In this document: piece after piece, positions 4,619 through 20,574 of the stretch
Position numbering within the stretch: position 1 is the stretch's first letter
How the letters are laid out: every line of letters begins with the position of its first letter
DNA from: a virus
IMG/VR virus record: IMGVR_UViG_3300044946_000002
Location: 1-25,480 of that record
Strand: one strand, 5' to 3'
Length of the DNA: 25,480 nucleotides
The notes under the pieces: generated by a model
Told to the model about the DNA's origin: nothing
Databases searched by the model: none
What the model saw: only the letters and a program-made list of their open reading frames with translations
Made by a program: the position numbers and the translations under genes

Positions 4619-5164
4619 ATGCTCGACGTCCACGTCCTGACGCTGAACAGCTCGCGCAAGGATTGGCTGAGGGAATGTCTGGAATCCATCCAGATCGCGA
4701 TGGAGCGATGCCCCTTCGCGGTCAACCTGCACCTTGTGCAAGGCATCGAAGGCCACATCGGCCTCGGGCGAGACAAGGGGTATGCCTTGGGCGACCATCC
4801 GTTCGTCACATACGTGGACGATGACGACTTCGTGCTACCGGACGCGTTTCGCAATATGCGAGATGCAATTCAAGCCAAACCTGATGTCATCTTTACACCG
4901 GAGTACGTATTACAGAATGGTTTTCAAGTACATGGAGAAAGACGACACCACTTGTCGGTGTATGCGCGAGGATTTCTGATTGACCACTCGGCTTACACAG
5001 TATGCGGTGATTACGCCCAGATTCGCTACGCAGAACGCGCTAACCGAGTCATCGATCTTCCAAAACGAACCTATGTCCACCGGCTATACCAAAGCGGGGG
5101 ACGCAAGCTAAGACGGGAGTACCCCGACGAGTGGAGAAAGGTCTGTGGCAAACATCCTACTTGA
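4619..5164 (+). CDS. GT2-like glycosyltransferase (GT-A fold)
   Basis: This probably transfers a sugar from a nucleotide donor. The 181-residue product begins HVLTLNSSRKDWLRECLESI, the classic first strand and helix of family 2 glycosyltransferases. It has IGLGRDKGYALGDHPFVTYV at about 47-66, followed by DDDD at 67-70, which occupies the place of the metal/nucleotide-binding DXD motif, and then FVLPDAF. It is shorter than typical GT2 enzymes (usually over 220 residues), so the acceptor half is minimal. It lies between TerS and the Ig-like protein, and its 3' end overlaps the latter by 20 bases. The DNA from about 4860 is AT-richer. The acceptor could be a virion protein. No target is shown. 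Confidence 0.7.
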   Translation: MLDVHVLTLNSSRKDWLRECLESIQIAMERCPFAVNLHLVQGIEGHIGLGRDKGYALGDHPFVTYVDDDDFVLPDAFRNMRDAIQAKPDVIFTPEYVLQNGFQVHGERRHHLSVYARGFLIDHSAYTVCGDYAQIRYAERANRVIDLPKRTYVHRLYQSGGRKLRREYPDEWRKVCGKHPT

Positions 5165-6200
5165 TGGGACGAACTGGCAAGACCCGAATTATGGCGATCA
5201 GCCCCCGGCTTATTGGACGGGAGCGACGTATGAGTACATCGGGAGCAATCTGAACGGCCAATTCTATCTGGGTGCCGATATGACTTATCAGGGCACTGTG
5301 AACGCCGGGGACATTTGTGCGGGGTCCATTACTTCCACGAGTGCTGATACGACAGCCTTCTCCATCACGATCAATGGAACGCCAGTCGCCACGCAAGAGT
5401 TAGCCACTAATCAAACCTATCCATTCAGCTTTACTTTGTCCACCAATGACACGGTGTCTGTACTACTTGGCACAGGTCAATTTCTGTATTCTCAAGATGC
5501 CGTTCTAACGCCGACAGCTGAACCTACGATCACGGCACAGAACACCGCGATTAGTATGGCTTATGAGGCGGCACAGACATCGCTTCCTTATATCGTGCTG
5601 GAGAATGGTACGCAGACACCGCCGGATTCGCTAGCGATCATCACGCCGCCTACTTACGGCACAGCGCAGGTCAACGGCCAGACGATCCAGTACATTCCGA
5701 ATCAGGGCTATTCCGGTCCGGATTCACTGACCTATACGGGAACTATCGATGGCATCACGTCAAACGTTGCCACCATCGCCATCACCATGCTTCCACCAGC
5801 GCCTTGCGATGAGTTGGGACGCGTCACCCGTGCTTATGTCAGTGGATATCAGCGAGATCGTGTTCATCGATCAGACCTCGTTCGTGGCGAAGCGCGTTGC
5901 TTGTGCGCGGAGTTCCGTGGAGCTATTAATCCAGCGCGATCCATCGTCAGCGTTCAGTGGATGTGCCAGCAGCCTTACGCCATCTTCATGTCCAATGCCC
6001 GCATATCCGGAACGGAATGCGCCGTAACCATCAGCGCGCAGGCCGCGTCGTGGTGCTACATGAAGTGCATCGCCACGCTGGATAACGGTGAGCAGTACAC
6101 GCAGCTGTTTTACCTGACCATCCGCTCGGCACCGTACTTCTTTGGGGAAATCTTCCCGACGATGTCTGGCCCAACGATCCTCACGGCGCAGCAAGCATGA
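5145..6200 (+). CDS. Virion-type protein with Ig/cadherin-like domain
   Basis: GTG at 5145 has GGAG at 5133-5136. The 351-residue product is rich in Ser, Thr, Asn and Gly and is predicted to be beta. The N-terminal ~125 residues contain SITINGTPVATQEL and FTLSTNDTVSVLLGTG. Residues ~162-215 match a bacterial Ig/cadherin-like repeat (P-x-x-GTAQVNGQTIQYIPNQGYSG-x-DSLTYT). The C-terminal ~95 residues (QWMCQQPYAIFMSNARISG, LDNGEQYTQLFYLTIR) resemble a recurring phage structural domain. Residues ~219-254 are Arg/Cys-rich, and a different frame is clearly better there, so two compensating frame changes are likely (see findings). This may be a decoration or adhesion protein. The last 4 bases overlap TerL. 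Confidence 0.65.
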   Translation: MANILLDGTNWQDPNYGDQPPAYWTGATYEYIGSNLNGQFYLGADMTYQGTVNAGDICAGSITSTSADTTAFSITINGTPVATQELATNQTYPFSFTLSTNDTVSVLLGTGQFLYSQDAVLTPTAEPTITAQNTAISMAYEAAQTSLPYIVLENGTQTPPDSLAIITPPTYGTAQVNGQTIQYIPNQGYSGPDSLTYTGTIDGITSNVATIAITMLPPAPCDELGRVTRAYVSGYQRDRVHRSDLVRGEARCLCAEFRGAINPARSIVSVQWMCQQPYAIFMSNARISGTECAVTISAQAASWCYMKCIATLDNGEQYTQLFYLTIRSAPYFFGEIFPTMSGPTILTAQQA

Positions 6201-7717
6201 GTCTGACCGCCGAAGAACTGACCGAGGTCTACATGTTGAGCGAGCAAGTCGCGCGGCATGAGCGGCGCTATCTAGCACGGACCGATCTGTTCTTCCTGAT
6301 GACGGAGATTTTGGGTCGTCGCGACATGAATCGACCATGGCTGCGCGAGCGCTGCGAAGAGGTGCAAGTCCATCCGGATGACTATCTGGACTTGTGGGCG
6401 CGCGAGCACTACAAGTCGACCATCATCACCTTTGGAAAGACCATTCAGGACATCCTTGCCAGTCACGGCGATGATCCGTTGCCAGAATGGGAAGGCATCG
6501 AACCCACGTTCGGCATCTTCAGTCACACGCGACCGATTGCGAAAGGCTTTCTTCGCCAGATCAAACAGGAGTTTGAGCGCAATGCGATCCTGTTAGACCT
6601 GTTCCCGGACATCTTGTGGAGCGACCCGCGCCGAGCGCCGAAGTGGTCCGAAGACGACGGGATCATAGTCAAGCGCAAATCCAACCCGAAAGAAGCCACG
6701 ATTGAGGCGTGGGGCGTGGTCGACGGCCAGCCTACCTCCAAGCACTTCACCTACCTCATCTACGACGACGTCGTCACTAAGGAATCAGTGACCTCGCCTG
6801 ACATGATCGAGAAAACGACGTCCTCGCTCAAGCTTAGCTACAACCTGGGTTCGCAGGGCGGCCACAAGCGCTTCATCGGAACGCGCTATCACTTCAACGA
6901 TTCCTACCGCGACGTGATGGATACGAAGACCGCCACACCGCGCATCCATGCGGCCACGGAAGACGGTTCGGTTGATGGCAATCCGGTACTCCTGACGCGA
7001 GACGACCTGCATAAGAAGCGCGCCGAGCAGGGGCCGTACATCTTCAGTTGCCAGTTCCTGCAAAACCCCAAGGGCGATGAGACCCAAGGCTTCCGCGAGG
7101 AATGGCTGCGCGAGTTCTCGGGCAATGCTGCTTCGGATACGGTCAAGTATCTGCTGGTCGATCCGGCCAGCGGCAAGCGCAAGACCAACGACTACACCTC
7201 GATGTGGGTCGTGGCACTCGGCGCGGATCAGAACTACTACATCGTGGACATGATCCGTGATCGTCTGAACCTGACTGAGCGCGCCAAGACGCTGATGTCG
7301 CTGCACCGCAAATGGCGTCCGTATCAGGTGCGTTATGAGAAGTACGGCATGATGGCTGATATCGAGCACATCAAGACGGTGCAGGAGACCGAAACCTACC
7401 ATTTCGACATCATCGAGATGGGCGGGGCCACATCCAAGATCGACCGCATCAAGCGCCTTATTCCGCTCTTTGAAGCCGGTCGCATCTATCTGCCGCACAC
7501 GCTTCACCGCACCAACTACCAAGGCGTTACCGAAGACCTCGTTCACCTCTTCCTGCAAGAGGAATACAAGGCCTTCCCGGTACCCGTGCATGACGACATG
7601 CTCGACGCGCTGTCACGTATTGCGGAGCCCGATATCGATGACAAACGCCTAACGCTCAAATGGCCTAAAGAGGACGATGTGCCCGTGGTCCTGACCTTCC
7701 AATCGGAGTTTGCGTAA
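6197..7717 (+). CDS. terL: Terminase large subunit
   Basis: This is the packaging ATPase and headful/cos nuclease. The 506-residue product has a deviant Walker A (AREHYKST, 68-75), a Walker B (YLIYDD, 186-191) with the following acidic pair, and a GTRYHFND coupling-motif region. The C-terminal RNase H-like nuclease shows LLVDPASGK near 319 and HDDMLDAL at 465-472, supplying the metal-binding aspartates. The length is normal for the family. It overlaps the Ig-like gene by 4 bases (ATGA) and the portal start by 1 base (TAATG). The P-loop differs from the GxxxxGKS form of P22 gp2, so this may be a different TerL lineage attached to a P22-type head. Confidence 0.93.
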   Translation: MSLTAEELTEVYMLSEQVARHERRYLARTDLFFLMTEILGRRDMNRPWLRERCEEVQVHPDDYLDLWAREHYKSTIITFGKTIQDILASHGDDPLPEWEGIEPTFGIFSHTRPIAKGFLRQIKQEFERNAILLDLFPDILWSDPRRAPKWSEDDGIIVKRKSNPKEATIEAWGVVDGQPTSKHFTYLIYDDVVTKESVTSPDMIEKTTSSLKLSYNLGSQGGHKRFIGTRYHFNDSYRDVMDTKTATPRIHAATEDGSVDGNPVLLTRDDLHKKRAEQGPYIFSCQFLQNPKGDETQGFREEWLREFSGNAASDTVKYLLVDPASGKRKTNDYTSMWVVALGADQNYYIVDMIRDRLNLTERAKTLMSLHRKWRPYQVRYEKYGMMADIEHIKTVQETETYHFDIIEMGGATSKIDRIKRLIPLFEAGRIYLPHTLHRTNYQGVTEDLVHLFLQEEYKAFPVPVHDDMLDALSRIAEPDIDDKRLTLKWPKEDDVPVVLTFQSEFA

Positions 7718-9783
7718 TGGATACCTTGGCTTACGACGACGAAGATTCGGCGACCTTTGGTCTACCGGAAGGCAAAACGGTCGATGAATTCCTGGCCGAG
7801 ATGCGCACACGCGCGAACTGGTGCTTTGACACGCATCGGGACATGTACCGCGACGCCATTGAGGACGTGAAGTTCTGCGACATTCCCGGGCATCAATGGG
7901 ACGATCACATGCGCGGTTTGCGCAAGGATCGCCCGTGCTACGAGTTCAATCAGGTCCGCAAGAACATCCAGCAGATCACCAACGAGCAGCGCCAGAACCG
8001 AACGGCGATCAAGATTCGCGCCCTGAAGGATGCTACGGAAGACGATGCCGAGATTCGGATGGGCATTATCCGCAATATCGAGGCGATCAGCTTTGCCGAT
8101 AACGCTTATGACACCGCGTTCGACTTCGCGGTCAAGGGCGGTTTTGGCTGCTACCGCATAAAGACGCAATGGTGCGATGACGACGCGTTCGATCAGGAAA
8201 TACGCATCGAGACCATCGAAGACCCGTTCTCAGTGATGTTCGATCCATCGGCAAAGCGCTTCGACCGCAAGGACGCGCGCTACTGCTTCATCTTTAAGGA
8301 AATCCCGCGAAGCTTCTTCAAGCAGTTGTATCCGGATGCCGATCTTGTGAGCTTCACCGCCGGTCAGCAAGGTTCCGAATGGGACTGGAATGACTGGTGG
8401 GGCGAGCAGAAAGTCAGGATCGCCGAGTATTGGTGGAAGGAACCGACGACCGTCAAGCTCTACCTGATGAGCGACGGCTCAACCGTCAACGCCGATGACA
8501 CGGACCCTTACCTTGACCGCCTGAAAGCTGAGGGCGTCACCGTAGAGCGCACGCGAGAGGTCGATACCTACGACGTGTATTCCTGCGTGGTCTCTGGCTC
8601 GGAAATCCTGGAAAAGACGGCCAAATGGATGGGACGCAACATCCCGATCATTCCGGTATGGGGCAATCTGACGCGCGTCGAAGGCCGTGATATCTGGTGC
8701 GGTGAGGTTCGTTTCCAGCGCGATGCGCAGCGCTTGTACAACTACGAACGCTCCACGATGGTGGAAGTGATCGCCAAGCAGCCTAAGCAGCCGTTGATGG
8801 CCGCCATCCAGGCGATAAAGGGCTACGAGCGCATGTATCAGGATATGGGCCATTCGGACACGCCCGTGCTGCTTTACAACTACGTGCCAGAGATGCCTCA
8901 AGGTGGGATGCCGCAGCGTGCGCAGCCGCCATTCTTCCCGCAGGGCTTGGCCGAAGCCGCACAAATGTCGCAGTCGGACCTCAAGTCCACGTCTGGCGTC
9001 TATGACGCGGCAGCAGGTCGCAATGGCAACGAGACAGCCGGTGTCGCCATCAATGCCCGTATCCGTCAGGGTGGCATCTCCAACTTCCAGTACACCGACA
9101 ACTTTGCCAAGGCGAAGATGTACGAAGGCGAGATTCTGAACGAGTTGATCCCGCTGGTGTACGACACCGAACGCCAGATTCGCATCATTGGGGCCGATGG
9201 CGCGCAGAAGATCATCCAGATCAACCATGCGATCCAAGACCCGGATACGCAGGAATGGGTGACGGTCAATGACCTTTCTATAGGCAAGTTCGACATCGTC
9301 GTCGATGTGGGTCCGAGCTACACGACCCAGCGTATGGAGGCCGCTGAGGCCATGTCGCAGATGGCTCAGGTTCCTGGTCCGTTCCAGCCTCTCATGCAGT
9401 ACGGTTACGCGCGCTATATCGACGTGCCGGACATGGACGACATCAAGGAAGCGGCGCGCATGATGCTGGTCAAGCAGGGTGTCTTGCCGCCGAATCCCGG
9501 CGATCCTCCTGTGCCTCCACAGAAACCGAACCCGATGGTTATGAGCAAGGTTCAACTCACCCAAGCGCAGGCGCAGAAGACCATGGCCGAAGCGGGCAAG
9601 ACGCACATCGAGGCGCAGCAGATCGCGCAGAATGCGCCGCTTGAAATGGCGCATCTAACCGCTGTGACAGCGAAGGAAGAGGCGCATGCGATCAGCAAGA
9701 TTCCGCCGCTCGCGCCTGATCCAACCGTTCCGCAGCCCCCGAATAATGCCACGCTTCCGCTGACACCACCGGCACAGCTATGA
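7717..9783 (+). CDS. P22-type portal protein
   Basis: The dodecameric portal sits at the unique head vertex and is the DNA channel and motor dock. The 688-residue product has the P22 portal family layout: an N-terminal helical arm, then YEFNQVRKNIQQITNEQRQN and AISFADNAYDTAFDFAVKGG (about 66-145), a wing region rich in Trp and acidic residues (SEWDWNDWWGEQKVRIAEYW), ETAGVAINARIRQGG near 430, and a helical, Gln/Ala-rich C-terminal barrel-like tail (QAQKTMAEAGKTHIEAQQIA). P22 gp1 has 725 residues, so the length fits. GGAG at 7705-7708 precedes the TAATG start. Confidence 0.93.
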   Translation: MDTLAYDDEDSATFGLPEGKTVDEFLAEMRTRANWCFDTHRDMYRDAIEDVKFCDIPGHQWDDHMRGLRKDRPCYEFNQVRKNIQQITNEQRQNRTAIKIRALKDATEDDAEIRMGIIRNIEAISFADNAYDTAFDFAVKGGFGCYRIKTQWCDDDAFDQEIRIETIEDPFSVMFDPSAKRFDRKDARYCFIFKEIPRSFFKQLYPDADLVSFTAGQQGSEWDWNDWWGEQKVRIAEYWWKEPTTVKLYLMSDGSTVNADDTDPYLDRLKAEGVTVERTREVDTYDVYSCVVSGSEILEKTAKWMGRNIPIIPVWGNLTRVEGRDIWCGEVRFQRDAQRLYNYERSTMVEVIAKQPKQPLMAAIQAIKGYERMYQDMGHSDTPVLLYNYVPEMPQGGMPQRAQPPFFPQGLAEAAQMSQSDLKSTSGVYDAAAGRNGNETAGVAINARIRQGGISNFQYTDNFAKAKMYEGEILNELIPLVYDTERQIRIIGADGAQKIIQINHAIQDPDTQEWVTVNDLSIGKFDIVVDVGPSYTTQRMEAAEAMSQMAQVPGPFQPLMQYGYARYIDVPDMDDIKEAARMMLVKQGVLPPNPGDPPVPPQKPNPMVMSKVQLTQAQAQKTMAEAGKTHIEAQQIAQNAPLEMAHLTAVTAKEEAHAISKIPPLAPDPTVPQPPNNATLPLTPPAQL

Positions 9784-10001
9784 CACTGGCAGTGATCAAG
9801 AATCAAAAAACAGAAGCGCGGCAGGAATGTGCCAAGATGCTACGTGATCTGGCCGATCAGGCCGAGCGCGGCGAGATCGATTCGTTCTTTGGCATTGTGG
9901 AAATAGGCGCCGGTTACGCGGTCGTTGGAAGTACATCACTCTCGCGCTTACAGACGGTGGGTGCGTTATTCGAGTGCGCCACGGATCGCCTCAAGGTCTG
10001 A
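9780..10001 (+). CDS. Unknown 73-residue protein after the portal
   Basis: The ATG overlaps the portal stop by 4 bases. The product has an N-terminal helix (EARQECAKMLRDLADQAERG) and then a beta-like stretch (SFFGIVEIGAGYAVVGSTSL) ending in a hydrophobic helix. Short proteins with a 'cA.mLr.LAd.aerGEi.sf' start recur in phage genomes without a known function. There is no signal peptide or metal motif. It lies between portal and scaffold and is probably co-expressed with both. Confidence 0.55.
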   Translation: MTLAVIKNQKTEARQECAKMLRDLADQAERGEIDSFFGIVEIGAGYAVVGSTSLSRLQTVGALFECATDRLKV

Positions 10002-10082
10002 TCGGGCGCGACAGCCTCTTGCATCAGCCTCTAGGGTGTGCCGCATTACGGGGTGCATCCCCGGTTGCCATGTGCGCATTCC

Positions 10083-11102
10083 ATGACTGATCAAACGCAA
10101 GCACCCGCCAAAGCGAAACCTGTCGATACAGGCGTCAAGCAAGCCGACGTCGAAGTCATCAAGAAACAGGCCGAAGCCAAGCGGGAAGCTCGCAACAAGA
10201 GTTCGGGTTCCCCTGCACCAACTCCCGCTCCGGTGGCGACTCCCGCAGCGACACCAGCAGGCGACGACGGCGAAAGTGCCGGTGATGGCTCACGACAGCC
10301 GGACGACCTGACCGGGAAAGACCCGGACTGGTACGTCAAAAAAATCGGGAAGCTGACGAAGAGGGAAAAGCAGGCCCAAGAGCGCGCGAGCGCTGCCGAA
10401 GCCAAGCTAGCCGCACTGGAAGGCCAACGCACGGCACCACCTGCCGAAGCGCCAGCCCCCGCGCCGACCCCGCCGCCCGCTGCATCGAACACACCAGATC
10501 GTCCGAAGTTTGAGCAATTCGGTGGTGATACGGAGAAGTACCTCGAAGCCCTTTCCGATTGGAAGGTGGAACGAGCCTTAGCCGAGCGCGACGAGAAGGC
10601 GAAACGCCAAGCCGTCGAAACCGAAAAGCGCAAGCGTATGACGACGCTCCGTGAGCGTGAAACGCAGTTCGCCGCCGATCATCCGGACTACTTTGACAAG
10701 GCGTACAAGTCGCCCATCAATTACAGCCCCGACATGATCGACTTCGTGACCGAATCCGAAAAGGGTCCGGAAATTGCGTATTACCTCGCTGAGCATCTGG
10801 ATGAGGCCGCAACCATCTCCCAGCTTCCTCCGCACCGCCGCGCTATCGCGCTCGACCGGTTGGAGTCCAAGCTCAAGATTGCGCCAGCGGCCGATGACGA
10901 TGCTTTGGACGACGAAGACGACGACGATCCAGTTGCCCCTCCTGCTCCGCCAGCGCGCAAGGTCACCAAGGCACCCGCGCCGCCCGCGACAGTTCATGCC
11001 GGTGGAGCACCGACTCGGTCTGCGACCGATGCAGGGCTTTCCACCGCCGAACGGATTGCGAAATGGCGTCAGGGCGACAGAAACAGGCGTCGCAGGCGGT
11101 AA
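10083..11102 (+). CDS. Scaffolding protein
   Basis: This is an internal scaffold that directs coat assembly and leaves the head before or during packaging. The 339-residue product is highly charged and low-complexity: a Pro/Ala-rich linker (about 45-65 and 115-130), coiled-coil helices (KREKQAQERASAAEAKLAAL; DWKVERALAERDEKAKRQAV), then FAADHPDYFDKAYKSP, ISQLPPHRRAIALDRLESKL, an acidic run (DDDALDDEDDDD) and a strongly basic C-terminus, as in P22 gp8, whose basic tail binds coat. It lies between portal and coat, as expected. The ATG at 10083 has no strong Shine-Dalgarno. An upstream in-frame GTG (10038) has AGGG too close to be useful. A weak GGGG/CCCC hairpin at 10050-10062 lies just upstream. 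Confidence 0.85.
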   Translation: MTDQTQAPAKAKPVDTGVKQADVEVIKKQAEAKREARNKSSGSPAPTPAPVATPAATPAGDDGESAGDGSRQPDDLTGKDPDWYVKKIGKLTKREKQAQERASAAEAKLAALEGQRTAPPAEAPAPAPTPPPAASNTPDRPKFEQFGGDTEKYLEALSDWKVERALAERDEKAKRQAVETEKRKRMTTLRERETQFAADHPDYFDKAYKSPINYSPDMIDFVTESEKGPEIAYYLAEHLDEAATISQLPPHRRAIALDRLESKLKIAPAADDDALDDEDDDDPVAPPAPPARKVTKAPAPPATVHAGGAPTRSATDAGLSTAERIAKWRQGDRNRRRRR

Positions 11103-11135
11103 TCCGCACGCGCGCCTTTCTTCAGGACGCGACCC

Positions 11136-12356
11136 ATGTCAAATACATTAGTCACTACCGAACTGGTTGCCGACAAGGCACTCCAGATACTCACCGAAAA
11201 ACTCACCTTCATCCCGACCATCAATCGCGAGTACGACGATTCGTTCGCGCGTACCGGCGGCAAGATCGGCGACACCTTGCGCGTTCGCGTGCCTCAACAC
11301 GGCACCGTGCGTCAGGGCAAGGTCATGCAGCCCGATCCGCTGGTGGACGTGACCACGCCGGTCATCATCGCCAATCAGTCCGGTATCGACTTGGGCTACA
11401 GCTCAGCCGAACTGGCGCTGGACATCGATGAGATTGCCGAGCGTTACCTCAATCAGCGCATGGCCGACTTGGCCGTGACCATCGAAGCGACGTTGATGGC
11501 CCAGGCCTACATCGCGGTCAACAGCGAAACCGGCAACCCGGCAGGCGCGCTCAACAGCCTGTACTACACGCAGTACGCCAAGAAGCTGTTGGACGATCAG
11601 CTCGCCCCGCGCGGCGACCGCAACATGCTGCTCGGCACGGCAGCGGAAGTGCAGATCATCCCGGCACTGGCTGGCCTCTTCAACTCCGTCGAAGAGATTG
11701 CCGAGCAGTACCGTGAAGGCCGCATGGGCTATGCGACGGGCTTCGACTGGGCGGCCTCGACCGTCATGCCGACGCACACGACTGGCTCCTTTGCCGGTAC
11801 GCCGATTGTCTCGGGCGGTAACCAGTCCGGTTCGTCCATCGTGACCTCTGGCTGGACCGCTTCGCAGCCGGTGCTCAATGCTGGCGACATCATCACCTTC
11901 ACCGGTGTGAATGCCGTACATGCGCAGACCAAGCAGAACCTGGGCTATCTGGCGCAGTTCGTGGTGACGTCGGCGGTTGTTTCGGCAGCCTCGGGCACAA
12001 CCACGATTCAGATCAGTCCCGCGCTGACACCTTCGGGTGCTCAGCAGAACGTGACAGGCTCGCCTGCCGCTAACGCACCGATCCTGCTGCCTGCCGGCGC
12101 AGCGACCACTTACGGCATCAATCTGGCCTACACACGCGACTTCTTCACGTTCGTGACCGCCGATCTGCCGATTCCGCCGAAGAAAGACGCTGCACGCCGC
12201 ATGTTCGAAAGCATCTCGCTGCGTGTGATCCATGACTTCGACACCCGCAACGATGAGTTTCTGGCCCGTGTGGACGTGCTGTGGGGCGGTAACGTGATCC
12301 GTCCGCAGCTGGCGACCCGTGTCGCGAACTCGCTGACTCTCACCCCTCCGAGCTGA
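11136..12356 (+). CDS. Major capsid (coat) protein, P22 gp5 family
   Basis: This is the HK97-fold shell protein. The 406-residue product resembles P22-type coat: SNTLVTTELVADKALQILTE, then VRVPQHGTVRQGK and a long spine helix (IDEIAERYLNQRMADLAVTI). An inserted beta domain lies in the middle (GDIITFTGVNAVHAQTKQNL to about 320), and it ends FESISLRVIHDFDTRNDEFL and DVLWGGNVIRPQLA. P22 gp5 has 430 residues, so the length fits. AGGA at 11124-11127 lies eight bases before the ATG. Its codons are strongly GC3-biased, as for a highly expressed gene. A UUCG hairpin follows the stop. Confidence 0.92.
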   Translation: MSNTLVTTELVADKALQILTEKLTFIPTINREYDDSFARTGGKIGDTLRVRVPQHGTVRQGKVMQPDPLVDVTTPVIIANQSGIDLGYSSAELALDIDEIAERYLNQRMADLAVTIEATLMAQAYIAVNSETGNPAGALNSLYYTQYAKKLLDDQLAPRGDRNMLLGTAAEVQIIPALAGLFNSVEEIAEQYREGRMGYATGFDWAASTVMPTHTTGSFAGTPIVSGGNQSGSSIVTSGWTASQPVLNAGDIITFTGVNAVHAQTKQNLGYLAQFVVTSAVVSAASGTTTIQISPALTPSGAQQNVTGSPAANAPILLPAGAATTYGINLAYTRDFFTFVTADLPIPPKKDAARRMFESISLRVIHDFDTRNDEFLARVDVLWGGNVIRPQLATRVANSLTLTPPS

Positions 12357-12379
12357 TCGGGGTTGATCTAACCTGAGCG

Positions 12380-12403
12380 CTCGCCCTTCGGGGCGAGTTC
12401 TTC
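12380..12403 (+). terminator. UUCG hairpin after the coat gene
   Basis: CTCGCCC at 12380-12386 and GGGCGAG at 12391-12397 form a perfect 7-base stem closed by a TTCG tetraloop, followed by TTCTTCC. It is a stable hairpin with only a poor T-tract, so it may be a leaky terminator, a transcript-stabilising 3' end for coat mRNA, or both. It sits in the 68-base gap between coat and the decoration-like gene. Confidence 0.65.
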
Positions 12404-12424
12404 CCAAGCTTCGAGGACATTTCC

Positions 12425-12748
12425 ATGACTAACCCTGTCGTTCCGACCTATCAGGCCACCACGGCAAACCAGAACGTTCCTGACCGTCACTTCGATGTCT
12501 GCGTCCCCGGCGCAGGCGCTGCTGATGGTGTGCTTCTTGGTGCGCAATCCACCGACAAAGTCGGCCTCTTTGGCGTCATGCCTGTGACTGCACCGGCAGC
12601 GCCAACCGGAGTTACTGACACGCCTACTGTGGGCACCGGCGCTGAAGTGCACGTCGACACCACGTTCGACGGTGGGCTTGGCACCACGGCTTACACCATC
12701 GGCGACATTGTCGCGGCTCTCAAATCGTATGGTGCGCTACCGCAGTAA
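12425..12748 (+). CDS. Small head decoration-like protein
   Basis: ATG at 12425 has GAGGA at 12413-12417 seven bases away. The 107-residue product is Thr/Val/Gly/Ala-rich with a TDKVGLFGVMPVTAPAAPTG segment. It resembles small proteins found next to coat genes that contain 'KIGFYGxTPVxQ' and end in a short helix (here IGDIVAALKSYGALPQ). They are often annotated as decoration or head-fibre-like proteins, and I rely on memory for this. No signal or membrane segment is visible. Its location, sandwiched between the coat hairpin and a strong terminator, supports a highly expressed virion component. Confidence 0.55.
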   Translation: MTNPVVPTYQATTANQNVPDRHFDVCVPGAGAADGVLLGAQSTDKVGLFGVMPVTAPAAPTGVTDTPTVGTGAEVHVDTTFDGGLGTTAYTIGDIVAALKSYGALPQ

Positions 12749-12773
12749 CCCTTTTCCGACAACGCAGTGTGCC

Positions 12774-12805
12774 GAGGCGTCCGGGCAGGACGCCTCTTTT
12801 TTTTT
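12774..12805 (+). terminator. Strong intrinsic terminator after the decoration-like gene
   Basis: GAGGCGTCC at 12774-12782 pairs perfectly with GGACGCCTC at 12788-12796 (9 base pairs, 5-base loop GGGCA), followed by nine T residues at 12797-12805. This is a textbook factor-independent terminator on the plus strand. It ends 17 bases before the next start codon. Confidence 0.93.
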
Positions 12806-12822
12806 ATGCCCTAATCCCGCCC

Positions 12823-13236
12823 ATGGCCACCGTCCTCGAAGTCGTCAGCCGCTCTTTGCGCCTCTTGGCTGTGCTCGACGCACGGCAACCACCGACAGCG
12901 GACGACATTCGCGACGGCACGATCTCGATCAACCGCATGATGCAGCGCTGGGAAGCAGACGGCACCGCGATTGGCTGGACGCCTGTTTGGAATCCCACCG
13001 ACACGCTCACCGTGCCGGAAGAAATCCTGGAAACGGTCGAATACAACCTCGCCGTGCGCCTTGCGCCGCAGTACGACCGCGAACCCTCTCAGACTGTAGC
13101 CGCGATGGCGACCGAAGGCCTGAGCAATCTCTTGCGTGATCGCGTGGTGGAAATGCCGCTAGAACAGACGCTGGATACACCGCTAGGCTTCCGTTCCGGC
13201 AAGTACGACACCCTCACTGATACGTGGCGGCGCTGA
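12823..13236 (+). CDS. P22 gp4-like head completion / tail accessory protein
   Basis: This is the head-tail connector protein that attaches under the portal. The 137-residue product begins ATVLEVVSRSLRLLAVLDAR, with DDIRDGTISINRMMQRWEAD and LETVEYNLAVRLAPQYDREP, matching the helical pattern of P22 tail accessory factor gp4. The length is near the family's ~150-166. The ATG at 12823 lacks a visible Shine-Dalgarno. The upstream in-frame extension would begin inside the terminator stem, so it is rejected. Its position directly before gp10-like fits P22 order. Confidence 0.82.
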   Translation: MATVLEVVSRSLRLLAVLDARQPPTADDIRDGTISINRMMQRWEADGTAIGWTPVWNPTDTLTVPEEILETVEYNLAVRLAPQYDREPSQTVAAMATEGLSNLLRDRVVEMPLEQTLDTPLGFRSGKYDTLTDTWRR

Positions 13237-14627
13237 TGCCGTCGCCGCAGCGTCGTCCGCTTCCGATTATCGGTGGGGCTTTCACCGATCTGGCGCGTCC
13301 GTTCGATCTGCAAGACTGCGTGAACTATCTGGTCGAACCAGCGGCCGATGCCCATCAGCGCTCGGAAGGCTTACTACGCGGCGCACCGGGGCTGACCACC
13401 AAAGTCACACTCCCCACCTTCCCAAATCGGGGATTGCATGATGCAGAGGGAAATCTCTTTGCGGTGAACGGCCAGGAGCTATATCAGCTCAACATCGCCG
13501 CAGGCACGTATACCGCTTTAGGTGCAGTTCCCGGCGTCACTCGCGTGACCATGGCGCACAACCAGATCGCGGGCGGCTATGAAGTCGTCATTGCGGGCAA
13601 CGGCACGGATGGCTGGATTTACAACACAGCCACCGCGACTTTCAGCCAGATCACCGACCCGAATTGGCCCGGCGCGCTACGGCTGGATTACATCGATGAC
13701 TACATCATCGGCGTCGAACCGTTTGGCCAGTTCTGGTTCAACTCCAATCTTGCCGATGCGACGACATATCAGGCGCAGAACACCTACGAAGCCTCGATTT
13801 CACCCGGCCCCCTCCTTTCGCTCAAGGTCAACCATGATGAGGTGTGGGCATTCGGCTCGCGCATCGTAGAGCCGTTCGTCGACGCTGGAGCGATTGACAT
13901 CCTGTTTCAGCCTCAGCAAGGGGTGACGATGCAGATCGGATGCGCCTCGACCTTTTCGGTGCAGTTGATCGATAACACGATGTTATGGCTTGGCAATGAT
14001 GGCGTCGTGTATGCCTGCATGGGCTATGTGCCGAGCCGCGTTTCCACCTTCGCCATTGAACAGCAGATTGCGCTATGCAACAAAGCGCAAAGCTTTGCCT
14101 TTGTCTGGAATGACCGAGGTCACAAGGTCTATTACCTAACCTTCCCGGATGGCTTTACGTGGGGCTATGACATCAATTCCGGCGAATGGCACCGCCGCGA
14201 ATCGGTAGGTCTCAACCGCTGGCGCGTCTCCGATATCGCGGCCTCCAACAACCTGCAGATCGCGGGCGACTTCCAGAACGGGAACATCTATCAGGTCGAT
14301 TGGACCAATTACACCGAAGCGGGTGCACCGCTGGTCGCGCGCCGTCGCATGCCTTACATGCACGCCAATCAGAATTGGGTGCGCATGTCGGCGATGGAGC
14401 TGATCATGCAGACCAACGTGGCAGCAGTGGGCCAAGATGCCTCGGTGTGGCTGCGCTACTCCGACGATTACGGCACGACATGGTCCAATCTGGTCGAAGT
14501 TCCGCTTCAATATGCCGTTCGCGCCACGTTCAATCGCTTAGGCCGTTTCCGTGATCGCGTCTTCGAGATCGGCATTTCCTCACCCGTACAGCGCGACATC
14601 GTCGGCGCAGTAGGCATCATGCAATGA
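13236..14627 (+). CDS. P22 gp10-like packaged-DNA stabilisation protein
   Basis: This plug/tail-tube protein keeps DNA inside the filled head. The start at ATG 13236 overlaps the upstream TGA (TGATG). A GTG at 13224 would add four residues. The 463-residue product has the gp10 character: DLQDCVNYLVEPAADAHQRS, GLLRGAPGLTT, LDYIDDYIIGVEPFGQFWFN, FGSRIVEPFVDAGA and MLWLGNDGVVYA, a beta-propeller-like series. P22 gp10 has 472 residues. It follows gp4-like as in P22. No gp26 tail-needle gene follows it here. Confidence 0.88.
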   Translation: MPSPQRRPLPIIGGAFTDLARPFDLQDCVNYLVEPAADAHQRSEGLLRGAPGLTTKVTLPTFPNRGLHDAEGNLFAVNGQELYQLNIAAGTYTALGAVPGVTRVTMAHNQIAGGYEVVIAGNGTDGWIYNTATATFSQITDPNWPGALRLDYIDDYIIGVEPFGQFWFNSNLADATTYQAQNTYEASISPGPLLSLKVNHDEVWAFGSRIVEPFVDAGAIDILFQPQQGVTMQIGCASTFSVQLIDNTMLWLGNDGVVYACMGYVPSRVSTFAIEQQIALCNKAQSFAFVWNDRGHKVYYLTFPDGFTWGYDINSGEWHRRESVGLNRWRVSDIAASNNLQIAGDFQNGNIYQVDWTNYTEAGAPLVARRRMPYMHANQNWVRMSAMELIMQTNVAAVGQDASVWLRYSDDYGTTWSNLVEVPLQYAVRATFNRLGRFRDRVFEIGISSPVQRDIVGAVGIMQ

Positions 14628-15193
14628 AGAACTTCCAGCGCCTCTTTACCGGCATCGACACCAAGCCGCTTATGCTGGCGATCAATCGGCGTCCGGAACT
14701 GTGGAAAGAGGACACGTATCTGCGCGACTACCCACAAGGGCCGTTCGCGGATATGGAATCGATCATGCTTCGGTTCCCGGTCAAAGGCGTCTACGAGACC
14801 GAGAAAGAGCTTCAGGACCACTTGTCCAAATACGACCCACACGAATCGATCGATTACCCGGCGTACAAACTACTCACCGAAGCGCGTCCGCTGGTGATGA
14901 ATCTCATGCATTACGTGGGTGGCGAGCGCTTGGGCCGCGTGATGCTGAACAAGCTTCGCCCGGGTGGTCGCATCTACCCGCACGCCGACACGCCCGAACA
15001 CGCGGCCTACTATTCCCGCTTTCACCTTGTGCTCTATTCCCGACCGGGCGTTGTCTTTCGGTGCGGCGAAGAGGAATGCTACTGGGAAGAAGGAAGCGTT
15101 TTCTGGTTCAACAATGCGCTTGAGCATGCCGTATTCAATGGGTCAGCCGATGACCGCATCCACATGATTGTCGATATCAGGACAAGCCGATGA
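14624..15193 (+). CDS. Aspartyl/asparaginyl beta-hydroxylase-like oxygenase
   Basis: This is a likely Fe(II)/2-oxoglutarate-dependent dioxygenase of the AspH type that hydroxylates a protein side chain. In the 189-residue product the core is RPGGRIYPHADTP (112-124), FHLVLYS, WEEGSVFWFNNALEHAVFN and DDRIHMIVDI. The metal ligands expected in the family would be H120 and H168, with D122 near the first, and R178 as the 2-oxoglutarate anchor. AspH enzymes use two histidines and often lack the third carboxylate, so the role of D122 is uncertain. It overlaps gp10 by 4 bases (ATGA) and the next tiny ORF by 4 bases. The substrate is unknown, but a neighbouring virion protein is possible. Confidence 0.75.
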   Translation: MKNFQRLFTGIDTKPLMLAINRRPELWKEDTYLRDYPQGPFADMESIMLRFPVKGVYETEKELQDHLSKYDPHESIDYPAYKLLTEARPLVMNLMHYVGGERLGRVMLNKLRPGGRIYPHADTPEHAAYYSRFHLVLYSRPGVVFRCGEEECYWEEGSVFWFNNALEHAVFNGSADDRIHMIVDIRTSR

Positions 15194-15282
15194 GCACCGA
15201 AACCTACTTCAACGCTGAACCGGGCGAAGAGCCGTTCGAGACACTGATGCGCGAGGCGCTGGGCGGAAACGATGACCCGTAA
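15190..15282 (+). CDS. 30-residue ORF between two modifying enzymes
   Basis: The ATG overlaps the previous stop (ATGA) and the 3' end overlaps the acetyltransferase start by 11 bases. The product reads MSTETYFNAEPGEEPFETLM and then REALGGNDDP. It is very acidic, with no membrane segment. The position and overlaps on both sides, plus GGCGGA inside it serving the downstream ATG, support a translated coupling peptide or a small functional protein. Alternatively it is only a translational bridge. No homolog is recalled. Confidence 0.5.
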   Translation: MSTETYFNAEPGEEPFETLMREALGGNDDP

Positions 15283-15787
15283 GCACAAAAAAGTGTCCAC
15301 GGGTACAGCGTCCGTCACAGTCCCAAAACCAGAAGTGACGTTCATGGTTGAGCCGTGGTCGCGCTTCAAGATCGAAGCCGCCCCGCTTTGGATCGAGCAC
15401 TGGAAAGAGGTCGCGATAAATCAGGCCGAGATTCCGCTCAAGGTCGATTACCGCCAGTTCGATCAGCAGGATGCGACCGGATCGCTGCACATCATTGTGG
15501 CGCGACACCAAGGCGTCATCATCGGATACTGGCTCGGGTTTGTGCGGCCTCATTTCCATTATGCCGACAGCTTGACGGCATACACGGACATCTACTACCT
15601 CGATCCGGCTTTCAGGAATGCAGGGACCGGCGCAGCGTTATTTGGCTTCGTCGAAAAGAGTCTGAAACAGCGTGGCGTACAGAAGATTTTCACGGCAACG
15701 AAGTGCCATCTTGACCATTCGGCCTTGTTTGAGGCTCTGGGTTACAACCGCACTGAGATCGTTTTTACGAAGCTTTTAGAGGATTGA
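15272..15787 (+). CDS. GNAT-family acetyltransferase
   Basis: This probable acetyl-CoA-dependent N-acetyltransferase has 171 residues. The core shows IIVARHQGVIIGYWLGFV (strands), DIYYLDPAFRNAGTGAALFG, where R115-NAGTG-120 is the R/Q-x-x-G-x-G/A acetyl-CoA pyrophosphate loop, and a final helix/strand with SALFEALGYNRTEIVF, typical of GNAT motif B. The start has GGCGGA at 15261-15266. It lies directly downstream of the beta-hydroxylase-like gene and upstream of ejection proteins. GNATs occur in some phages in similar positions. The acceptor (virion protein, host target or small molecule) cannot be read from the sequence. Confidence 0.78.
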   Translation: MTRKHKKVSTGTASVTVPKPEVTFMVEPWSRFKIEAAPLWIEHWKEVAINQAEIPLKVDYRQFDQQDATGSLHIIVARHQGVIIGYWLGFVRPHFHYADSLTAYTDIYYLDPAFRNAGTGAALFGFVEKSLKQRGVQKIFTATKCHLDHSALFEALGYNRTEIVFTKLLED

Positions 15788-15790
15788 GAC

Positions 15791-16561
15791 ATGGTCGCAG
15801 CAGCCATCGGCATCGGAACGGCAGTCGCTGGCATCGCGGGTTCGGCCATGTCGTCCAGTGCGTCATCGAGTGCAGCAGGCGCGCAGGAAGCCGCGGCTAA
15901 TCAAGCATCCGCCAATCAGATGGCGATGTTCAACAAGACGCAGGCCAATGAACAGCCCTACATGCAGACGGGGCAGAATGCGCTTGGCGCCCTCTCGTCG
16001 CTTTACGGCTTGAATGGCAGTGCGCCGAACTACTCCGTCTTGACGAACTCGCCGAACTATCAGTTCGCCTTCAATCAGGGTGAAAACGCGCTGGATGCGA
16101 GCGCGGCGGCGAAGGGCAATCTCTTTGCCGGTGGCTACGGTCAAGACCTGGTGAACTATGGACAAGGCATGGCCTCTCAGCAGCTTGGCGCCTATACCGG
16201 CGAGCTGAACACACTCGCCAATCAAGGTCAGAATGCAGCCAGCGGCACCGGCGCACTTGGACAGAACGCCGCATCGACCTCCGGGCAAGACCTCATGAAT
16301 GGCGCAAACGCCTACGGCACGGGTCAGATCAACAGCGCGAATGCCTGGATGAATGGCTTGGGCCAAGCGACAAACGGTATCTCGTCGGCGCTCGGCTATG
16401 GCAACGCCTACGGCGGTCAGATGCCCGGCATGGTGCCCACGGGTGGCATCAGTGACTTCAGCAACTACGGAAACTATGGCGGTATAAATGGCTTCGGCAG
16501 TCTGGGCGGTGGCTTCCAGACTCCCACCCAAGTAACTAATGTTCTTGGACCCATTCAGTAA
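15791..16561 (+). CDS. DNA ejection (internal virion) protein, p32/gp7-like
   Basis: The 256-residue Ala/Gly/Asn/Gln-rich product begins MVAAAIGIGTAVAGIAGSAM, a hydrophobic segment followed by a long helix (AAGAQEAAANQASANQMAMF). It then has YMQTGQNALGALSSLYGLNG and SPNYQFAFNQGENALDASAA, which recur in phage DNA-transfer proteins (P22 gp7 role, 'p32' type). The C-terminus is Gly/Tyr/Asn-rich and probably disordered. GAGG at 15779-15782 serves the ATG. It should be carried in the head and ejected to help form a trans-envelope channel. It heads the ejection module. Confidence 0.72.
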   Translation: MVAAAIGIGTAVAGIAGSAMSSSASSSAAGAQEAAANQASANQMAMFNKTQANEQPYMQTGQNALGALSSLYGLNGSAPNYSVLTNSPNYQFAFNQGENALDASAAAKGNLFAGGYGQDLVNYGQGMASQQLGAYTGELNTLANQGQNAASGTGALGQNAASTSGQDLMNGANAYGTGQINSANAWMNGLGQATNGISSALGYGNAYGGQMPGMVPTGGISDFSNYGNYGGINGFGSLGGGFQTPTQVTNVLGPIQ

Positions 16562-16571
16562 GGATTGCGTC

Positions 16572-18695
16572 ATGGCTTACGACACAATGGCAATGCCGCA
16601 GATTCCCAACTACACGCAGAATGCGCTCGGTGCGTATGCGACCGGGGAAGCGCTGGGCCAGAACCAGCAGAATCAGGACAACACGCAGCAGCTGAACCAG
16701 CTCGCTAGCTCCGCTGTTGGCATGACCGATCCGACGCAGCAGACCAACTTGCTCAAGCAGATGGCCGCGATCAGTCCGGATGCCGCCAAGCAGCAGCAGG
16801 CCGAGTTCCAACAGCTCGAGGCTCAACAGCAGGGCATGGCCGCGCAGAAGCTTCAGGGCGTCGCGCAGACCGCCGCTGCCATTGGCTCCATGCCAGATGG
16901 TCCCGACAAGGATGCTGCATGGCAAAAAGTCTTACAGCAGGCCGATGCGTCGGGTGTTGATACGTCCCCCTACAAGGGCTTGCCCACCGATACGGCGGTC
17001 AACCTTGCGCTAGCGAAAATCTCCAATTCGCAGCAACTGCTCGGCATGGCAAAAGAGGGGCAACCAGCTCCCGATGCTGCGCCAGTCTATAAGGAAGTAC
17101 CGACCGGCAAGGTCGATTCCCAAGGCAATCCGATCATGCAGGGCGGATGGGTAGCTCCCGGCAAGCCCTTCCAGCCAATCATGGGTCCAGCCGGTCAAGG
17201 CGGCGCGCAGCCAGCAACACCCGGCGCAGGACAACTTGCCGCCGAAACGCAGCAATATGTGCCGAGCGTGCTCGCCAAACTCAACGGCGCATCCCCAACG
17301 AATCCTGATGGCACGGCTTCCGATGCGTTGGTCAACGCTGTGATTGCGCAGGAATCGGGCGGCAATCCGCGCGCGCGGTCGAATAAGGGCGCGGTGGGCC
17401 TCATGCAGCTCATGCCTGCCACGGCGGCAAGTATCGGCGCACCACAGAACGTGGACCTGACCGATCCGGCCACGAATGTGCAGTTAGGTCGTCAATACCT
17501 GAACCAGTTGCTGACGCAGTTCAAAGACCCTCGCCTCGCGCTAGCCGCCTATAACGCCGGTCCCGGCGCCGTGCAGGCGGCAATGGGCGGTCAGGGTCCG
17601 AACGGTCCTCAAGCGCTTGCTTTCGGTCAATCTGCGAAGGAAGGCGACAAGGCTCCATCCGGCTACCGCTATAACCCGGACGGGTCGCTCAGTGCGATCC
17701 CAGGCGGCCCCGCTGACAAGACCAACAAACAGGAAGTGCAGAACGTCGGCGATCCGTCACAGACCGGGAATGCCTACCTGCAATCGATTCCGGATGTGGG
17801 CTTGCGCAACCTGATTGCAGGTATTGCCTCGGGCAACATCTCCATGCCGCGCATCTATAAGTCAAGCGCCGGCACGCTCAATTCGACCGACATTGACAAG
17901 GCTGTGGCGCAGTTCGACCCAAGCTATCAAGAGGGTGATTACCACACACGTCTGAAGACCCAGCAGGATTTCACGACCGGTGCGGATGCCAAGAACCTCA
18001 CCAGCCTGAATCAGTTTGCGGCCCACGCGCAGCAGTTGAACGACATGATTCCGCAGCTGGCAGGTTCCGGTATTCCAGTGATCGGGCATGCCTACAACGC
18101 TGCGGTGAACACACTGGAAGACCCGATGAATGGACAGCTCACCGCATGGCAGACCAAAGCCAACGCCGTCGCCCATGAAGCGCGTGCAGTCTTCGCCGGT
18201 CAGTCGGGGGGCACGTTGGCTGAACTGAATGATCAGCTGGCCGTGCTCAACGGCAACAATTCGACGGCGCAGAAACAGGCGGCCCTATCCTCGATTTCCG
18301 ATCTGGTGCGCTCGCGCATCGGCATCATGCAGGACAAGTACGACAACGGCATGGGGTCGATGAGCAAGCCCTTGGCCGTCGTGTCGCCGGAAACCAAATC
18401 GGCGCTGGATTCGCTGGCTAAGATCGACGGCGGTCCAGACGGAACCAGTCAGGCCGCACCGGCTCAGCCACAAGCTCAACCTGCCGCCCCGCCATCCGTA
18501 CCGCAGGCTGCGCAACCGGTCGCCCCTCAGCGATCCCTACCGGGGCAAGCGCCGATGAGTGCTAGCGTTCCACGTGGAACCCCTCCACCTGCCGCCGTGG
18601 CTCACTTGCGCCAGAATCCGGCGCTCGCTCAATTCTTCGATGCCAAATACGGACCCGGAGCGGCGCGTGCTGCGCTGACAGCCAATGGCGGATAA
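16572..18695 (+). CDS. Ejection protein with soluble lytic transglycosylase domain
   Basis: ATG at 16572 has AAGGA at 16560-16564. The in-frame ATG at 16539 is rejected because it lies inside the previous gene without a ribosome site. The 707-residue product has a Gln/Ala-rich helical N-terminus and a lytic transglycosylase (SLT, lysozyme-like) domain at about 253-340: VIAQESGGNPRARSNKGAVG with catalytic E261, GLMQLMPATA, LAAYNAGPGAV. A long helical C-terminal part follows, with a Pro/Ala/Gln-rich tail. The domain should cut peptidoglycan during DNA entry. It corresponds to the P22 gp20/gp16 position. Confidence 0.85.
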   Translation: MAYDTMAMPQIPNYTQNALGAYATGEALGQNQQNQDNTQQLNQLASSAVGMTDPTQQTNLLKQMAAISPDAAKQQQAEFQQLEAQQQGMAAQKLQGVAQTAAAIGSMPDGPDKDAAWQKVLQQADASGVDTSPYKGLPTDTAVNLALAKISNSQQLLGMAKEGQPAPDAAPVYKEVPTGKVDSQGNPIMQGGWVAPGKPFQPIMGPAGQGGAQPATPGAGQLAAETQQYVPSVLAKLNGASPTNPDGTASDALVNAVIAQESGGNPRARSNKGAVGLMQLMPATAASIGAPQNVDLTDPATNVQLGRQYLNQLLTQFKDPRLALAAYNAGPGAVQAAMGGQGPNGPQALAFGQSAKEGDKAPSGYRYNPDGSLSAIPGGPADKTNKQEVQNVGDPSQTGNAYLQSIPDVGLRNLIAGIASGNISMPRIYKSSAGTLNSTDIDKAVAQFDPSYQEGDYHTRLKTQQDFTTGADAKNLTSLNQFAAHAQQLNDMIPQLAGSGIPVIGHAYNAAVNTLEDPMNGQLTAWQTKANAVAHEARAVFAGQSGGTLAELNDQLAVLNGNNSTAQKQAALSSISDLVRSRIGIMQDKYDNGMGSMSKPLAVVSPETKSALDSLAKIDGGPDGTSQAAPAQPQAQPAAPPSVPQAAQPVAPQRSLPGQAPMSASVPRGTPPPAAVAHLRQNPALAQFFDAKYGPGAARAALTANGG

Positions 18696-20574
18696 TTCCA
18701 ATCCCTTCGATCAGTTCGACGCGCAAGGTGCCCCCGTAAGCGCGCAGGGAGCACCGACAGCATCAGGCAACCCGTTTGACCAGTTCGATGCCGCTGGCGC
18801 GCCAGCGCCAGCACAGGCAGCCACAGCGTCTACACCTTTCGACCAAGCGGTCCAGCAACAGGTGCAGATTGCTCGCTCGCAAGATTCGGCAGCCGGTCCA
18901 GCGCCCACTCCCGGAATGCTCGATACCGCATTGCAATCCGTGCAGGACTACGGCAATGCCGCAGCGCATCACCTTGCGAACATTCCGGTCGGCGCTTTAC
19001 AGCTCGGTGCGAATGCCGCGTCGAAGATCGCGGATTCCCTACTCCCGGCAACGAGTCAGGAACGGCAGCTTGACGATGCCGCCGCGCAGCGCATTAACCA
19101 GAACGTGGCGCAGCGTGAGGCGCAGTACCAAGCCACTACTCCGACCAATAAGTCGTCTATTGCTGGCGCGACCACGAGCGAAATACTGCCATGGATGCTT
19201 GGTATCGGCGAGGCAAAGGCTGCTGGGTACATTCCGGAGGCTACGACCTACCTTGGCAAGATCGGCCAAGGTGCACTGACAGGAGGCGCTATCGCGGCAA
19301 CCCAGCCCGTCTCCACGCCGACCGGTTCAGGTCAGACGACCCTCAATGACGTGGCTGAAAACAAGACCGCTGCGCCGACCTATGTGGATCAGAAGCTCAA
19401 GCAGATCGGTTTAGGCGCGGTGACCGGTGGTGCGATTCCCGCTGTTACCGGTGCGCCTGGTGCAATCCTACGAACGGTTGCGGGAAATATGTCGCCGGAA
19501 ACGGCTCAGCTTGCTCAGCGTGCTCAGCAACTCGGCATCGACTTGAATGCCCCGCAAGTGTCCGATTCGGTGCCGCTCAAAGTCGCCAATTCGGTCACTT
19601 CGCAATTGCCATTTAGCGGAGCCGCGTCCGCTGCCGCTAAGCAGCAAGGTCAGTTCAATCAGGCTGTCGCGCGCACCATCGGTCTCGCCGATCCCATTAC
19701 CAACGATGCGCCCAAGGCCATCACGCCGGATGTGTTCCAGCAGGCCGTGCAAAAAGCCTCCCAAGGCTTCAATGATCTGTGGTCACGCAACAACATGAAT
19801 GTGACGCCACAGGTGCTCAAGAACCTGACAGATGTCGCCAATCAGGCGCAACAGGTAGATGGGCCGGATAGCGGGCAGGCCTTGAATGGCGTGCTCGACC
19901 GCGTTGCCAAGGAAGCTAGTAACGGCACATTGCCGGGGCGCAACTTCCAGACCATCGATACGCTGCTCGGTAAGATGCAGCAGGGCGGTGGGCAGAAAGC
20001 CTATTGGGCCGGAGAGATGCAGGATGCGCTGCGCGATGGTATGCAGCAGTCCATGTCGCCCGCTGACCAGTCGGCCTTGAGCGATCTACGCGGGACGTGG
20101 CAGAACATCAAGACGCTTACTCCGCTGGTCGCTAAGGCATCGGGTAACGATGGCAACATCTCACCTGGGGCATTGATGGGCGCTGTCACGTCCAACGGCG
20201 TCGGCAAGAATGCGGTAGCGCAAGGCACGCGCGGTGATCTGGCTGACTTGGCGGCTATCGGTCAGCGCTTCCTCAAGCAGCAGATTCCCGACTCCGGCAC
20301 AGCTATACGTTCGCATGCATTGGATGCTATCAAGACGATGGGTGGTGTGGCGTCTGGCGCGCCACTGGTAGGCGGTCCCGCTGCAGTAGGTGCTACGGCA
20401 GCTACCCTTGGCACCGGTCGGGCATTACAGGCGCTCCTACGCAGTCGTGCGATGTACAACGCGTTGGGCCAGACTCAGGGTGTGGCTGCATCTCCGACGA
20501 CCAATGCGCTCGGTATCGCCGCCTCGCAGTACGCGATCAATCCTCCGATGCAGGCTCCTGCCACCCAGCAGTGA
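18685..20574 (+). CDS. Large ejection/internal virion protein with NPFDQFD repeats
   Basis: This 629-residue product starts at an ATG overlapping the previous gene by 11 bases. It opens with two near-identical units (SNPFDQFDAQGAP, GNPFDQFDAAGAP) and a third partial TPFDQAV. An Ala-rich helical region follows, with two Gly/Ala/Thr hydrophobic stretches (about 160-215 and 555-580) that may insert in membrane, and long amphipathic helices between them. The order after the transglycosylase protein matches P22 gp16, an internal pilot protein with 609 residues, so size and place agree. No enzymatic motif is visible. No strong Shine-Dalgarno is seen, so coupling to the upstream gene is likely. Confidence 0.7.
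   Translation: MADNSNPFDQFDAQGAPVSAQGAPTASGNPFDQFDAAGAPAPAQAATASTPFDQAVQQQVQIARSQDSAAGPAPTPGMLDTALQSVQDYGNAAAHHLANIPVGALQLGANAASKIADSLLPATSQERQLDDAAAQRINQNVAQREAQYQATTPTNKSSIAGATTSEILPWMLGIGEAKAAGYIPEATTYLGKIGQGALTGGAIAATQPVSTPTGSGQTTLNDVAENKTAAPTYVDQKLKQIGLGAVTGGAIPAVTGAPGAILRTVAGNMSPETAQLAQRAQQLGIDLNAPQVSDSVPLKVANSVTSQLPFSGAASAAAKQQGQFNQAVARTIGLADPITNDAPKAITPDVFQQAVQKASQGFNDLWSRNNMNVTPQVLKNLTDVANQAQQVDGPDSGQALNGVLDRVAKEASNGTLPGRNFQTIDTLLGKMQQGGGQKAYWAGEMQDALRDGMQQSMSPADQSALSDLRGTWQNIKTLTPLVAKASGNDGNISPGALMGAVTSNGVGKNAVAQGTRGDLADLAAIGQRFLKQQIPDSGTAIRSHALDAIKTMGGVASGAPLVGGPAAVGATAATLGTGRALQALLRSRAMYNALGQTQGVAASPTTNALGIAASQYAINPPMQAPATQQ

Follow-up and report, generated by a model that had tools for sequence, protein, structure and literature searches.

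An AspH-family 2-oxoglutarate/Fe(II) oxygenase and a GNAT acetyltransferase constitute a co-inherited, usually translationally coupled gene pair that is tied to the DNA ejection genes of more than 100 P22-like podophages and prophages. The window (the whole stretch of DNA analysed, a 25 kb viral record of 25,480 nucleotides) is a P22-like podophage late region that includes genes for TerS, TerL, portal, scaffold, coat, gp4, gp10, three ejection proteins, tail-type proteins and an endolysin. An earlier note on this DNA had pointed to three enzyme genes lying among these virion genes, and all three ORFs were borne out by an ORF check and by Pfam, with their coordinates and families correct. Its grouping of the three held for AspH and the GNAT, which belong together, but not for a glycosyltransferase that is missing in relatives. 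We give roughly even odds to the reading that AspH and the GNAT are a maturation pair that acts on ejection proteins during virion assembly, before packaging, the ejection proteins being the substrates that we infer.

Of 126 distinct AspH genes from viral contigs, phage records and prophages with enough downstream sequence, 122 are followed directly by the GNAT. At 117 loci the sequence extends far enough to show the gene after the GNAT, and at 104 of them it encodes a gp7-like ejection protein. The sample favours close relatives, and the numbers are inflated by shared descent. Exceptions to the GNAT-next order (L004, L039, L318 and L319) all fall among the more distant relatives, and several other apparent exceptions to the pairing were artefacts of ORF-start assignment. 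The IMG/VR scans covered the best 80 of 414 AspH matches and the best 80 of 476 GNAT matches. At 98 of about 118 loci the GNAT begins before AspH has ended, the two genes sharing four bases (ATGA); in the window itself they do not overlap and are separated by 78 bases. When loci were counted from the GNAT side, AspH was directly upstream in 55 of 63 distinct loci, with at least two of the remainder being false negatives. GNAT genes lacking an AspH are found in more distant phages, for example in Zobellviridae. The frequencies of pairing and overlap contradict independent acquisition of AspH and GNAT, which the note had held to be the simpler alternative. Of the three genes whose co-occurrence in relatives it proposed to check, these two proved to be co-inherited, and the glycosyltransferase was found in none of the AspH-bearing relatives tested.

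Upstream of AspH the neighbouring gene differs from locus to locus, and these neighbours sort into at least 36 clusters, of which five are large. The order of AspH, GNAT and ejection genes stays fixed while this upstream neighbour changes, indicating that the block moves as a unit. Pairing also reaches beyond close kin, as judged by AspH proteins with 55% and 35% identity to that of the window in, respectively, the cultured Pseudomonas phage PfAn1, where AspH (XRX11816) and GNAT (XRX11817) are followed by internal virion proteins (XRX11818-XRX11820), and Limnohabitans phage DC33, where AspH and then GNAT stand ahead of genes not recognised as ejection genes. Of 13 bacterial genome records, 11 show the same order of AspH, GNAT and ejection genes; they are mostly from Burkholderiales plus an Acinetobacter, and the loci are presumably prophages. 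The module is also seen in a record whose label is Patescibacteria MAG (L310), most likely a misbinned phage contig.

The first gene of the pair (14624..15193, + strand), which in the window shares 4 bases with the end of gp10, matches Asp_Arg_Hydrox (PF05118) with E=1.9e-16 and 60.7 bits against a cut-off of 22.6. Its AlphaFold model (pLDDT 90) resembles proline 3-hydroxylase (Z 16.0, rmsd 2.4, 148 aligned residues), proline cis-4-hydroxylase (Z 15.3, rmsd 2.6, 161 aligned) and human AspH (Z 14.8, rmsd 2.9, 155 aligned); the three matches are near ties. Profile comparison gives E=1.7e-9 to human AspH and 1.7e-6 to proline cis-4-hydroxylase. Residues H120, D122, H168 and R178 are invariant in all 119 relatives and correspond, in the alignment, to positions in the catalytic half of human AspH. 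They include the two histidine metal ligands (H120 and H168) and the 2-oxoglutarate-binding arginine (R178), the matching human residues serving in metal and 2-oxoglutarate binding. The phage protein has an HxD motif, whereas human AspH is not known to have that aspartate. Fold and cofactor-binding residues are common to the phage enzyme, human AspH and the proline hydroxylases (1e5r, 4p7w), but the phage protein is about 190 amino acids long, has no TPR domain and possesses a distinct, conserved N-terminal half. Scores against the NCBIfam equivalogs for LpxO and OlsC (17.5 and 21.8 bits) are far under their cut-offs of 500 and 450.

No other protein of the region is as conserved as AspH, which has a median coverage-weighted identity of 64%, compared with 34% for the GNAT, 31% for coat, 28% for gp10, 23% for portal and 22% for gp7. 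Possible reasons for this high conservation are a substrate that is itself conserved and transfer of the cassette from phage to phage. Median dN/dS values of 0.30 for AspH and 0.52 for the GNAT lie near dS saturation and so lend only rough support to purifying selection. At two loci (L045 and L046), AspH and gp10 seem split or shortened, which could be due to sequencing error or to decay of prophages.

The second gene of the pair (15272..15787, + strand) matches Acetyltransf_1 (PF00583) with E=4e-10 and 40.3 bits against a cut-off of 20.7, and its AlphaFold model (pLDDT 87) matches many GNATs at Z values of about 14-16. Seven residues (H43, E46, H96, Y97, D106, R115 and K144) are identical in all 118 relatives, even though median identity to the window protein is only about 34%. 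The acetyl-CoA motif A (R/Q-x-x-G-x-G/A) reads RNAGTG in the window; across the relatives R115 is invariant, position 120 is Gly in 105 of 118, and the middle Gly is variable. Judged by these conserved residues, both AspH and the GNAT appear to be catalytically intact.

The GNAT gene immediately precedes the first ejection gene, as do gp14 (DUF2824) in P22 and gp13 (Phage_T7_Gp13) in T7, proteins annotated in connection with head morphogenesis and as internal virion protein, respectively. Both share the genomic slot and a similar size with the GNAT, but unlike the window protein they have no Pfam GNAT match and no AspH partner. Alignment of the GNAT with P22 gp14 and T7 gp13 by hhalign gave no significant match in either case (the P22 alignment being shallow), and the equivalence therefore rests on position. 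Searches of PDB sequences for a link uniting the GNAT with gp13 or gp14 gave nothing convincing, T7 gp13 matching only two spermine/spermidine acetyltransferases at E of about 0.4, and no entry named T7 gp13 or P22 gp14 is among the 50 viral structure matches listed, which counts neither for nor against a link. In Cobaviruses and Zobellviridae a GNAT also directly precedes the ejection or internal virion genes (PMC6775973) and belongs, like that of the window, to the phrog_1249 acetyltransferase family, but no AspH adjoins it as in the window. The Cobavirus paper (PMC6775973) has proposed the GNAT in this position as the counterpart of T7 gp13, citing a role in virion morphogenesis that had been suggested.

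Short-tailed phages inject their DNA through a transient channel formed by ejection proteins. In the window, the GNAT is followed on the + strand by a gp7-like DNA ejection protein (15791..16561; phrog_598, E=1.2e-35), a gp16-type ejection protein with a transglycosylase domain (16539..18695; lytic tail protein and transglycosylase matches, best E=1.1e-22) and a gp20-type DNA ejection protein (18685..20574; phrog_26400, E=1.9e-59), whose family is found downstream in 67 loci. The genes two and three past the GNAT belong to conserved families in most loci and complete this ejection trio. The fixed position before the ejection genes suggests that the two enzymes act on ejection proteins, and coupled expression just ahead of these genes, with the trio downstream, makes them the most economical targets. 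Among the targets that the earlier note had listed, ejection proteins are favoured by position, and coat, decoration and Ig-like proteins have no comparable link.

AspH and the GNAT would be co-expressed with the ejection proteins and made together with them in the cytoplasm, where the ejection proteins might be hydroxylated and acetylated prior to packaging or otherwise readied for the ejection channel. The gp7-like protein would be modified first, possibly followed by the gp16- and gp20-type proteins, and the modification may consist of prolyl hydroxylation plus acetylation. Conserved prolines are present at P56 (98%) and P88 (93%) of gp7 and at P76 (97%) and P153 (88%) of the gp20-type protein; P56 is found in P22 gp7 too, though P22 is without AspH. 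Together with the proline-hydroxylase-like predicted fold, these residues make prolyl hydroxylation of ejection proteins a possible candidate reaction. Several observations run counter to a maturation pair. The median identities of 64% for AspH and 22% for gp7 are unexpected under co-evolution; the ejection trio has no well-conserved Asp or Asn column, none reaching 65%; and the DC33 pair precedes genes that are not recognised as ejection genes. The fuller proposal, in which the two genes are a dedicated oxygenase and GNAT cassette that modifies podophage ejection proteins for packaging and for later assembly of the DNA-ejection channel, is put forward tentatively, as somewhat less likely than not.

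Both enzymes might instead be made late and modify host proteins as a takeover pair, in the manner of Rac, the phiKMV GNAT that is reported to trigger cleavage of the alpha subunit of host RNA polymerase (PMC7552054). Rac is a documented case of a phage's own GNAT acting on the host, with an effect reported at the protein level, but its target is the host transcription machinery and an AspH partner is not reported (PMC7552054). The GNAT of ZP6, whose gene has tail tube B on one side and a structural gene on the other, has been read in the same way (PMC8515928), and a conserved host target would suit the strong conservation of AspH. We nevertheless consider host takeover unlikely, given a location in the late structural operon and constant linkage to ejection genes despite rearranged genomes. 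Occupation of the slot of P22 gp14 and T7 gp13, proteins that have been suggested to act in morphogenesis (PMC6775973), would also fit a non-catalytic function in which the GNAT is a chaperone or assembly protein with an enzyme-derived fold, like gp14 and gp13, assisted by AspH. This is quite unlikely, since the metal- and 2-oxoglutarate-binding residues of AspH and seven polar residues of the GNAT are fully conserved, and hhalign gave no significant match of the GNAT to gp14 or gp13. More doubtful still is a pair directed at small molecules or lipids, in which AspH would hydroxylate free proline or, in the manner of LpxO and OlsC, a membrane lipid, while the GNAT would acetylate a metabolite, the two being metabolic or envelope-modifying cargo. 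Free-proline hydroxylases are among the AspH fold matches, OlsC and LpxO are matched weakly in NCBIfam, and the DC33 gene has been described as an auxiliary metabolic gene (PMC12195039); the lipid-hydroxylase scores, however, are far below curated cut-offs, and metabolic cargo is not expected to hold one position ahead of ejection genes.

The three-enzyme virion-decorating set of the earlier note has in its favour that all three genes lie in one late operon of this one phage, but it is largely refuted by the absence of the third member elsewhere and is now highly improbable. That gene (4619..5164, + strand) encodes a small GT2 glycosyltransferase that matches Glycos_transf_2 (PF00535) with E=1.2e-5 and 25.7 bits against a gathering cut-off of 23.3, over a partial profile covering residues 50-135 only, and phrog_19440 with E=1e-15; it contains an Asp-rich DxD-type stretch, YVDDDDF. 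No relative was found in INPHARED or IMG/VR: tblastn against 50,697 phage records gave no match, and neither did an IMG/VR scan whose reach is limited to close relatives. Among 30 AspH-bearing viral records a PF00535 search detected no glycosyltransferase, although the same search recovered the window's own gene as a positive control, and the protein used as query against AspH-bearing viral records likewise returned nothing. In L030, the locus with the closest portal, an Ig-like protein is followed by a TerS-position protein and a TerL-like protein, and the glycosyltransferase is absent from this region. Because it is absent from relatives, the three-gene set is rejected. The gene looks like an accessory of this phage's late operon with a distant relation to phrog_19440, and from its distribution we judge it to be a one-off outside the module and unrelated to the AspH-GNAT pair. 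The neighbouring Ig-like protein of the window (5145-6200) is about 40% identical over its C-terminal residues 226-351 to the L030 protein upstream of the terminase genes, and its N-terminal Ig part has no match in L030.

Published annotations treat AspH and GNAT singly, mostly as metabolic or host-takeover functions. GNATs in or near the slot have been reported one at a time as a morphogenesis factor (PMC6775973) or with a Rac-like host-takeover reading (PMC8515928), other podophage GNATs have been read as metabolic (PMC6918029), and it is AspH of DC33 that was called an auxiliary metabolic gene (PMC12195039). In the open-access literature, subscription literature being outside the search, we found no report of AspH-GNAT coupling or of a link to ejection genes. 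P22 gp14 and T7 gp13 are little-understood morphogenesis proteins encoded just before the ejection genes, and a conserved, apparently active enzyme pair in their slot yields a hypothesis open to test, namely that ejection proteins undergo chemical modification before they are used. A maturation cassette, if true, would bear on the role of this poorly understood slot, and the pair speaks against a default metabolic, resistance or host-takeover annotation of AspH and GNAT genes in such phages.

The N-terminus of the gp7-like protein (window 15791-15850) has a conserved VAAA(V/I) core that is found in many loci (for example L141, L145 and L311). A leader of about 14-25 residues precedes this core in about 20 loci, as in MKKLRGELKQDSHLNGGDRYCN, and recalls the P22 gp7 leader, which is annotated as being removed by host OpdA. 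The idea that VAAA marks proteins acted on by AspH or the GNAT was rejected, because VvAW1, BA3 and X14 have the motif but no recognised AspH or GNAT.

The slot in VvAW1, BA3 and X14 is occupied by phrog_12032/24280 proteins, and that of Rhodoferax phage P26218 (L324:1985-2857) by a related phrog_34170 protein. The P26218 protein has a sub-threshold C-terminal match to a SET domain (E=0.015) and is possibly another protein-modifying enzyme. Two further slot proteins look GNAT-like by eye and have in common an HP[DE] stretch close to the N-terminus: that of Pseudomonas phage PAE2 (L326:2294-2698), with a sub-threshold Acetyltransf_4 match (E=0.027), and that of PspP-H6/1 (L322:1881-2363), which is a DUF2824 protein like P22 gp14. 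Phage CBW1004C-Prop1 carries a sulfotransferase-family gene (L321:143-670; PF03567, E=1.4e-8) in its head-tail operon, upstream of a gp10-like gene.
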